A DNA stretch of 34,826 bases from Gemmatimonadota bacterium (GTDB lineage Bacteria > Gemmatimonadota > Gemmatimonadetes > Gemmatimonadales > GWC2-71-9): contig JACQVB010000188.1 in NCBI GenBank assembly GCA_016209985.1, positions 1-34,826 on the forward strand, read 5' to 3'. The position numbers were made by a program, and so were the translations under genes. Below the pieces are notes generated by a model. It was not told the origin of the DNA, ran no database searches, and was given only the letters and a program-made list of their open reading frames with translations. This document shows, piece after piece, positions 27,549 through 30,100 of the stretch (positions are counted from its first letter, which is position 1; every line of letters begins with the position of its first letter).

Positions 27549-28145
27549 TTACCAGGCTAGCGCCCGCACCAGGAGATCGGCCGTAGTATCTCTCCACGTG
27601 CGGGCGCTCGCCGGGTCTGAAGGAATCTCCCGGAACCGCTCGAAGGCTATGTATCCCAACGCCAGAATGACCGCTTGTTGCGCTGCGCGGTCCGGGTCGA
27701 TGTCGTCGCGAAAATAGCCGTGCGCCTGCCCTTCCACGACGACTTCCCGAATGTGCGACATGAAGCGGGCCAAGGTGCGCCCATAGGTCCCGCGCGCGGG
27801 CCGACGGGTTTCGAGGACGAGCAGTCGTGCCAGCTCGGTGCGCACCGCCAATGAGTCGAAGAGCGCGCTGAAGGCCTCGCGCAGGCTTTCCGAGGCGTGC
27901 CGCGCTTTGCTGCCCGTCTCGGGTTGTTGCATCGCCTCGCCGGCCACCCGCTCGATTATCGAGTCGTACAATCCCTGCTTCGAACGGAAGTAATAGAAGA
28001 CGAGCTGCTTGTTTACTCCCGCGCGTTTCGCGATGCGGTCGACGCGAGCGCCCGCATAGCCGCATTCCGCGAATTCTGCGCGCGCCGCGGCTTCCAGCAG
28101 CGCCTTGCTGTCGCGCTGGCGCCGGCGGCCAGAGGGGCCGGTCAC
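27549..28145 (-). CDS. TetR/AcrR family transcriptional regulator
   Basis: 198 aa from GTG 28145, which overlaps the TrmB-like gene stop as GTGA; the ORF-track start at 28376 runs through that gene. The N-terminal DNA-binding domain is typical: RRRQRDSKALLEAAARAEFA, GYAGARVDRIAKRAGVNKQL and VFYYFRSKQGLYDSII. The C-terminal ligand-binding domain (about 70-198) is helical with a TetR_C-like end. It is co-transcribed with a TrmB-like regulator, an uncommon pairing. The target is unknown; the nearby genes are lon and the TrmB gene itself. Confidence 0.92.
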   Translation of the reverse strand: MTGPSGRRRQRDSKALLEAAARAEFAECGYAGARVDRIAKRAGVNKQLVFYYFRSKQGLYDSIIERVAGEAMQQPETGSKARHASESLREAFSALFDSLAVRTELARLLVLETRRPARGTYGRTLARFMSHIREVVVEGQAHGYFRDDIDPDRAAQQAVILALGYIAFERFREIPSDPASARTWRDTTADLLVRALAW

Positions 28146-28849
28146 GACGGTTCCGGGCCCGAGGTCAAGGCGAGGACGGCAGCGCGCGTGGCTCCCATCA
28201 CAGTTCGGTCCGTGGTCCAGTAACCCTCGAGGCCGTGCGTTTCCAGTCTGGCAACCAAAGCGGCTTCGCCGGCGATCACCATCGTTACCGGGGCGCCGAA
28301 GAGCGATTGAACGTGCGGGAGGGAGACCGTGCCTTGCAGACGAATCGGTAACTCCGCGCTTTCTCCCACCAGCCAAACGTCGGTGGCTAACCCATCCGCC
28401 AATCTCTTCCGGAGCACGGGAAGGAGGGCGGAAACAACACGGTGGGGGCCGATCAGGAGCACCGGACCCCGTTCGCGCGCCGCGGCACGGGCGGCCACGT
28501 CCAGAAACCCGCGCTCACCCGCGATCGGAACGAATGACTCAGTCCCCTCGTCCGGAACCGCCCGAAGCTGTTCTTCCAGCTCATCGAGCCGGCGGGTTTC
28601 CCGTTGAACAATCCCGGCATATAGATCCAGCGGCTTCACAGCTCTGAATCGCTGGGGCTGCCTGCCAACCGCCACGGCCGCTCCCTTTGCAACCAATCCC
28701 CGCAAGGCCTGGTAGACATTGGCACGCGCTACCAGGAGGTCACGAGAAACAGCATACCCGCTCGCAGGACCGCCGTGTAGCAGGCGGGTATAGACCAAGT
28801 TCTCGGTGGCAGTGAATCCGAATGGGGTCAAGTCTAACGAGGTAGCCAT
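28142..28849 (-). CDS. TrmB family transcriptional regulator
   Basis: 235 aa from ATG 28849; GTG 28852 would add one residue. The N-terminal winged helix (about residues 8-75) reads FGFTATENLVYTRLLHGGPA, then GYAVSRDLLVARANVYQALRGLVAKGAA, matching the TrmB HTH domain. A short helix (LYAGIVQRETRRLDELEEQL) links to a C-terminal phospholipase-D-like regulatory domain (GPVLLIGP to VMGATRAAVLALTS). TrmB proteins are best known from archaea, where they bind sugars; the effector is unknown here. A TATAGT box seven bases upstream suggests a leaderless transcript. It is translationally coupled to the TetR gene. Confidence 0.88.
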   Translation of the reverse strand: MATSLDLTPFGFTATENLVYTRLLHGGPASGYAVSRDLLVARANVYQALRGLVAKGAAVAVGRQPQRFRAVKPLDLYAGIVQRETRRLDELEEQLRAVPDEGTESFVPIAGERGFLDVAARAAARERGPVLLIGPHRVVSALLPVLRKRLADGLATDVWLVGESAELPIRLQGTVSLPHVQSLFGAPVTMVIAGEAALVARLETHGLEGYWTTDRTVMGATRAAVLALTSGPEPS

Positions 28850-28856
28850 CACTACT

Positions 28857-28862
28857 ACTATA
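28857..28862 (-). promoter_or_regulatory. -10 box for a probably leaderless TrmB-TetR operon
   Basis: Read on the minus strand, TATAGT ends seven bases before ATG 28849. There is no Shine-Dalgarno in between. The surrounding 60 bases are AT-rich, and a run of seven T on the minus strand (28872-28878) could help terminate the upstream operon, although no strong stem precedes it. Confidence 0.5.
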
Positions 28863-28912
28863 ATGAACAGTCAAAAAAATTCTAGAGACTACGTTCCTAA
28901 GTCATTGTTTTT

Positions 28913-29686
28913 TCAGGTGTACTCAAGCGTCCATCCGGCGAGCTTCGCGATTAGAGCCAGCCGGAAGGTGACATCGACCTTTCGGTGCTCGGGCGACTTC
29001 GCGTCGAGCTCCAGGGGGAACGAAAAGTCGGCCAGACCCGACGGACTCTTGGGGAATCCCCGAAGATTCGCGGGGTTCCAGACTCCCTGCGGATCGCATT
29101 CGGACAAGAGGCGGGAGAGAATGCGCTGCGCGGTGGGCGAACTACCCAACTGCCCCAAGCGCACCAGCAACTCGATCCAGTGAAGCGCCAGCGGGAGGTC
29201 TTTCGGATGGCCGGCGGCATCGGCCATCAAAGGATCTCCCAACAGCTCATAAGAGGGCTTTACCGAGCGCTTCCCCACGTGGACCACGAACGGGCGCTTG
29301 GGGGCCGGTCGTGAAAGATAGGCGCCCAGGCGCTCCACAAAACCAGCGCGCTCCCGTTGGAGCCCCGGCATATAGGCAAGGGTCGCGACCGCGAGGGTCG
29401 TTGGCGGGTTGGCCTCGGGGTGCAGAACCGTCCTGGGTCCCTTTCGGACAAAAGGCTTCTCGGCCAGTTCGCTCCGGAGAAACTGCGATACATCTGAGGC
29501 CATCCGGTGTGCCGCTCCTCGCACTCGAGGGTCTTCCACGTGGCCCCCGTGGGCCAGAGCGGCGGTGGCACCCTGGCGCATCAAACCTCGCGCCCAGGTG
29601 GCCAGCTCGGGGTTTCCTTTGGCGGGCTTGGAAAACTCGAACAGCAGCGCCGGGTCTTCATCACGGGAAAGCAGGCGGAAAAACAC
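28913..29686 (-). CDS. Unknown protein, alpha-alpha-toroid-like (C-terminal part with the first usable start)
   Basis: 257 aa if GTG 29686 is used, but the frame stays open and protein-like for another 380 bases upstream (next entry), so this is likely the C-terminal two thirds of a larger protein. The segments RILSRLLSECDPQGVWNPAN and the upstream KQKRNGTWGDGILG resemble the repeats of terpenoid-cyclase/prenyltransferase toroids and of glucoamylase-like barrels. It also has MASDVSQFLRSELAEKPFVRKG and ends KLAGWTLEYT. There is no signal peptide. I do not recognise a named family. It is the last gene of a minus-strand operon with the M28-like and propeller-like proteins. Confidence 0.7.
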   Translation of the reverse strand: MFFRLLSRDEDPALLFEFSKPAKGNPELATWARGLMRQGATAALAHGGHVEDPRVRGAAHRMASDVSQFLRSELAEKPFVRKGPRTVLHPEANPPTTLAVATLAYMPGLQRERAGFVERLGAYLSRPAPKRPFVVHVGKRSVKPSYELLGDPLMADAAGHPKDLPLALHWIELLVRLGQLGSSPTAQRILSRLLSECDPQGVWNPANLRGFPKSPSGLADFSFPLELDAKSPEHRKVDVTFRLALIAKLAGWTLEYT

Positions 29687-30100
29687 CCGTTCCGCGAGGC
29701 GCAGCGACCGTTCTTCGGCGGGCGCACCAAGGTCGACCAGGTACCGGTATTCGGCTACGCTCCCGACGTTGCGTGCGGTGGGAGAGCGTAAGACACCGGT
29801 CCCAAGAATCCCGTCGCCCCAGGTGCCATTCCTCTTTTGCTTCCTTGCGGCCAGTGTTACCGCCCTATAGGCGAGGACTTCCTGTTTCAGGGCCAGTTGA
29901 TCGGCTTCGGTGGCAGCCCCAGGCGGAAGAATATCGTGGACCGTTCTCCAGCGAATGGGGGCAGAAGCGTTTGTCCTGAGCCAAGTTACAGGAACTCGGT
30001 GGGACGATGGGAGGTCCAGGAATCGCTCCAGGTCCGTGGCCGCCTGCGAGGATGCGCCGACAGCGGGTCAAAAATCGGGCGGGAACTTAGTGTGTTGCAT
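29687..30100 (-). pseudogene. 5' part of the toroid-like gene: open frame without canonical start, in-frame TGA
   Basis: On the minus strand, codons from 30067 down to 29687 have no stop and no ATG, GTG or TTG, yet read like coding sequence in frame with the gene below: LERFLDLPSSHRVPVTWLRT, APIRWRTVHDIL, KQKRNGTWGDGILG, AEYRYLVDLG. The nearest upstream in-frame ATG is 30100, but the frame then meets TGA at 30068-30070 after MQHTKFPPDF. Either a nonsense mutation broke the gene, initiation uses a rare codon such as CTG or ATT, or the sequence has an error. Without this part the gap 29687-30142 would be unexplained. Confidence 0.55.

Follow-up and report, generated by a model that had tools for sequence, protein, structure and literature searches.

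We asked where translation begins in a minus-strand gene that carries an in-frame stop codon close to its apparent beginning. The gene lies in a window of 34,826 nucleotides, the whole stretch of Gemmatimonadota DNA that was analysed. The reading frame was as the initial annotation had described it: the ATG at 30100 is followed by TGA as codon 11 (30070-30068), beyond which the frame stays open from 30067 to the stop codon TGA at 28915-28913. No ATG, GTG or TTG occurs in frame between 30067 and 29687, and the ORF listing gives only the 257-amino-acid ORF beginning with GTG 29686. Reassignment of TGA had rightly been dismissed, and four options had been offered, namely a recent nonsense mutation, a rare start codon, recoding or an error. 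Homologue N-termini and an upstream spacing that is out of frame favoured the rare start codon and spoke against the other three. We consider it very likely that the gene is intact and starts with a CTG placed by a Shine-Dalgarno (SD) sequence, and that the TGA lies in the leader, and probable that the weakness of the start is selected. The features concerned are collected in Table 1.

Table 1. Features of the toroid-like gene and its surroundings (window positions).
Feature	Coordinates	Strand	Remarks
Adjacent TrmB-family regulator gene	28142..28852	-	Pfam TrmB, E 9.5e-13; internal control for start codons
CDS of an uncharacterised, 368-aa alpha/alpha-toroid-like protein (predicted)	28913..30019	-	Probable CTG start to TGA stop; f1/f3 homology, length, model
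GTG, choice of standard gene callers	29684..29686	-	Probably internal, codon 112 of the 368-aa protein
Probable start codon CTG	30017..30019	-	Aligned codon in 69 genomes
SD-like GGAG, 6 nt 5' of CTG	30026..30029	-	SD also in 64/69 homologues
TGA in frame	30068..30070	-	Probably 5' UTR; without homology here; just 3' of the conserved motif
Conserved, gene-specific promoter-like motif TAAGTTCCCGCCCGATTT	30072..30089	-	TAnnTT form in nearly all homologues
ATG of the initial annotation	30098..30100	-	Not conserved; 5' of the motif; probably absent from the mRNA

A search with the whole frame recovered homologues in 60 of 61 order-level relatives, one per genome and free of internal stops, with 33-70% identity to the window frame over a region that included the part upstream of GTG 29686. 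Most of the genomes compared look fragmented, as metagenome-type assemblies do. In a wider sample of the phylum the gene was present in nearly all genomes of f1, f2 and f3 and in one of f4, and was not found outside these four; the f4 homologue (G205) starts at a contig edge and was excluded from start-codon judgement. Alignment revealed that similarity among the f1 and f3 sequences begins at about residue 17 of the frame opening at 30067, that is near window position 30019, and that no f1 or f3 relative is similar upstream of this point. The homologues do not all begin at GTG 29686, the outcome named beforehand as refuting a longer gene, since the alignment placed the beginning of similarity 111 codons upstream. 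The description of the frame as protein-like held upstream of GTG 29686 and failed further up towards the TGA, as f1/f3 similarity starts at 30019-30017, about 17 codons past it.

Translation from GTG 29686, giving 257 amino acids and leaving the conserved upstream part untranslated, would use the first canonical in-frame start, but it would drop 111 residues that include eight invariant ones among 42 sequences (P10, W13, R25, Q61, G65, W67, G86 and L94). The AlphaFold2 model of the protein read from the CTG was mostly helical (pLDDT 91, pTM 0.91), with confident strands at residues 6-9 and 364-367, and the 111 upstream codons were predicted with high confidence to fold. The first canonical codons of the homologues, moreover, were scattered in position, and we regard a start at this GTG as highly improbable.

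The codon at which similarity begins was placed in 69 genomes of two families, f1 and f3 (42 genomes first, 27 added); in three of the 69 rows (L049, L062 and L070) the register was shifted by eye, by two to five codons. It was CTG in 58 genomes, TTG in eight, GTG in two, ACG in one and ATG in none. CTG, TTG or GTG occupied the position in 68 of the 69, and CTC, CTT or CTA never did. Inside these genes CTC makes up 37% of the leucine codons, and the leucine codon two positions after the start varies freely (CTG 14, CTC 11, CTT 9, CTA 2). Because NTG is used almost exclusively, the valine codon GTG included, and CTC never, the pattern is that of an initiation codon and not of an ordinary leucine. 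SD matches of at least 4 nt, at a spacing of 4-10 nt, preceded the aligned codon in 64 of 69 genes (93%), compared with 292 of 2,228 internal NTG codons of the same genes (13%). A non-canonical codon (CTG in 58 and ACG in one of the 69) is thus conserved at a single aligned position among orthologues, and the SD sequence before this weak codon is well placed. Counted from it, 41 of the 69 proteins are exactly 368 amino acids long. Together these comparisons place the gene start at the CTG with high confidence, and initiation would take place at 30019-30017.

A start hidden in another frame was ruled out, as no ATG, GTG or TTG was present in any frame between -4 and +12 in any of the 69 genomes. 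One locus, L084 (G252), has ACG at the start position behind AGGAG, and its nearest relative, G008, has CTG; this ACG is either a start codon or an assembly error. In the f2 relatives (33-42% identity) the N-terminus is longer and in many of them rich in proline, and canonical candidate starts are located farther upstream. These properties, together with the lack of a detectable adjacent trmB in f2, confine the CTG arrangement, as far as the sequences compared can tell, to f1 and f3.

In nearly all genomes the DNA upstream of the start contains a conserved motif, TAnnTT with a CG-rich stretch and a T-run behind it (for example TAAGTTTGCGCCCGCTTTT), at a distance of 42-70 nt from the start codon. 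The distances from motif to start were variable and were not multiples of three, which indicates that the DNA upstream of the start is non-coding. The strict 18-base motif was found in six of 41 genomes, once in each and by coordinates always directly upstream of the toroid-like gene. The possibility that it is a general promoter was rejected, since in the 41 genomes the strict form occurs nowhere but before this gene. From its sequence and position the motif would be a promoter (-10-like) or an operator specific to the toroid-like gene; with such a motif upstream, the TGA would fall in the leader and ATG 30100 would lie upstream of the motif.

The same region bears on two explanations that keep the upstream ATG. 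In the first, ATG 30100 is the genuine start of the gene, and the TGA at 30070 is a lesion, either a recent nonsense mutation or an assembly error. The ATG and the frame are indeed as described, but f1 and f3 relatives have no similarity upstream of 30019, the ATG is not conserved and lies 5' of the conserved motif, and the location of in-frame upstream stops changes from one relative to the next, as is usual for non-coding DNA (in G007 one stands five codons before the CTG). Such a lesion is therefore very improbable. Recoding of UGA, by selenocysteine or by readthrough, would join ATG 30100 to the frame that goes on past the TGA, but the relatives have neither conserved protein nor a conserved TGA at that site. 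The leader RNA from -45 to +12, an interval that covers the leader near the start, showed no structure in excess of chance (mean z 0.12), and of all the explanations considered recoding appears the least credible.

To our knowledge, CTG is a start codon almost never used by bacteria. Its general use in this lineage was gauged in 400-kb samples from two f1 relatives, with starts called by a simple codon-model and SD score, so the counts are estimates. The called starts were ATG 189, GTG 77 and TTG 28 in the first relative (294 genes) and ATG 172, GTG 57 and TTG 22 in the second (251 genes), so that ATG accounts for about 66% of the 545 genes pooled. Clear CTG candidates numbered one to two among the 545: ligA in G019 and, less certainly, a gene in G021. 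The ligA gene is apparently CTG-started in some f1 genomes (L197 in G019, L214 in G001), where the codon forms an NTGA overlap with the preceding stop, and a GTG occupies a comparable place in other f1 genomes.

Non-AUG starts are rejected by IF3, whose own gene, infC, is the textbook case of an IF3-autoregulated non-AUG gene; for this reason infC was examined in 50 of the same genomes (loci L108-L157). CTG was the infC start in 33 of 34 f1 genomes (32 called, and G036 by eye) and TTG in the remaining one, G023, nearly always behind an SD sequence; the window's own genome (G000:C180, L146) has CTG. In f3, infC starts with ATT in six genomes; in G040 it was scored as CTG, with an ATT as the preceding codon. 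In f2 it starts with ATT, ATC or ATA. By this comparison the autoregulatory codon of infC has switched within one order, CUG replacing AUU in a gene in which a weak start is functional. The CTG start of f1 infC behind an SD sequence suggests that the ribosomes of f1, the window's family, very probably initiate at CUG.

The infC result also supports a less favoured explanation of the toroid-like gene, in which CTG is its start but is merely tolerated in a lineage of lax initiation and has no regulatory meaning. The apparent CTG/GTG alternation of ligA and the second possible CTG gene in G021 fit with it as well. Against it, clear CTG candidates are as rare as given above, and the start codon of the toroid-like gene persists among proteins of about 48-70% identity. 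Parsimony on the protein tree gave eight start-codon changes, five to TTG, two to GTG, one to ACG and none to ATG. With ATG at 66%, eight to nine independent states all free of ATG would be expected with a chance of about 1e-4, a figure of our own arithmetic that assumes independence. A study of 36 prokaryotic groups found AUG to be the favoured direction of start-codon change, with only 2 AUG-to-CUG switches among 61,358 ancestral AUG starts (PMC5622118). Mere tolerance is thus a minority explanation, albeit one with an appreciable chance of being right. The deep conservation of CTG, or of weak GTG or TTG and never of ATG, suggests instead that weak translation of the gene is under selection, and we hold such selection to be probable.

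Under the preferred reading, that of an intact gene with a selected weak CTG start, the mRNA would begin 3' of the promoter-like motif at 30089-30072, the GGAG at 30029-30026 would position the ribosome on the CTG at 30019-30017, and the TGA at 30070-30068 would fall in the untranslated leader. The CUG would pair poorly with fMet-tRNA, and such complexes would be rejected by IF3; in E. coli, CUG initiation complexes are less stable than those on AUG, GUG or UUG (PMC11497404). By analogy with infC and sigR, protein output would be low, and it would rise when start-codon discrimination relaxes. Selection for weak initiation would then hold the start at CTG, occasionally at TTG, GTG or ACG and never at ATG, across the two families.

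IF3 as the mediator, suggested by the same analogy, is a possibility that we favour somewhat less than its opposite. TTG and GTG are penalised by IF3 much less than CTG. Not all orthologues have a codon of the discriminated kind: TTG or GTG is present in 10 of the 69 f1 and f3 genomes (about 15%), and f2 has canonical candidates. Strict sensitivity to IF3 is therefore not kept everywhere, and the claim is safer when confined to low initiation as such. A regulon of IF3 acting through CUG starts in one family, comprising infC and the TrmB-linked toroid-like protein, with the protein made when fidelity or IF3 supply drops and selection excluding ATG, is a speculative and rather unlikely extension.

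Comparison with known systems showed both likenesses and differences. The infC gene starts with ATT in E. coli and ATC in Streptomyces (PMC5472188). Like the toroid-like gene, it is a single-copy chromosomal gene whose non-AUG start is conserved and preceded by a good SD sequence, and in the window's own family the two genes share the CTG start; infC, however, encodes the discriminating factor itself and the toroid-like gene an unrelated protein. Streptomyces sigR, which starts with GTC in 32 of 34 species and GTT in two, is repressed by IF3 and was misannotated in the available genomes (PMC5472188). Both sigR and the toroid-like gene have a lineage-conserved rare start and a conserved ribosome-binding site and are missed by gene callers, but sigR uses GTC within one genus and its IF3 effect is experimental, whereas the toroid-like gene uses CTG in two families and is known from sequence comparison. 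Sporadic bacterial CUG starts (PMC5622118) likewise show CUG as a prokaryotic start, but they are isolated switches, whereas the toroid-like family keeps CUG as the majority state. No report of a family-wide conserved bacterial CUG start was found in the literature searched, which was covered in part.

As far as we know, gene callers accept only ATG, GTG and TTG, and CUG starts are consequently missed; databases probably annotate the toroid-like gene in truncated form. The occurrence of CTG, TTG, GTG and ACG at one site offers a natural comparison for studying the retention of a weak start, and the family provides a test case for IF3 control of genes besides infC.

The function of the protein was approached by profile and structure searches. 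The window protein had no sequence match in Pfam, NCBIfam or the PDB. In Foldseek the protein resembled alpha/alpha toroids, among them squalene-hopene cyclases and GH105, only weakly, with a best E of 0.017 and TM values below 0.45. The term toroid-like used in the initial annotation is thus appropriate for the shape and not for the function. Membership in the terpene-cyclase/prenyltransferase or glycoside-hydrolase toroid families was rejected, since no profile or fold match was significant and the resemblance is one of shape only.

A TrmB-family gene lies downstream in 40 of 41 f1 and f3 loci; next to the f2 homologues none was detected. The adjacency in f1 and f3 points to a functional link between the two genes. 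The starts of the adjacent trmB-like genes in the same genomes were mostly ATG; in L032 (G011) and L048 (G027) the expected trmB start has no ATG, GTG or TTG. Directly before the trmB-like start, which has no SD sequence, many relatives (L022-L070) carry the palindrome AGTAGTAG...CTACTACT, and the copy in the window, at about 28840-28880, is less regular than those of the relatives. In its sequence and position the palindrome resembles an operator for autoregulation of a gene that is almost leaderless.
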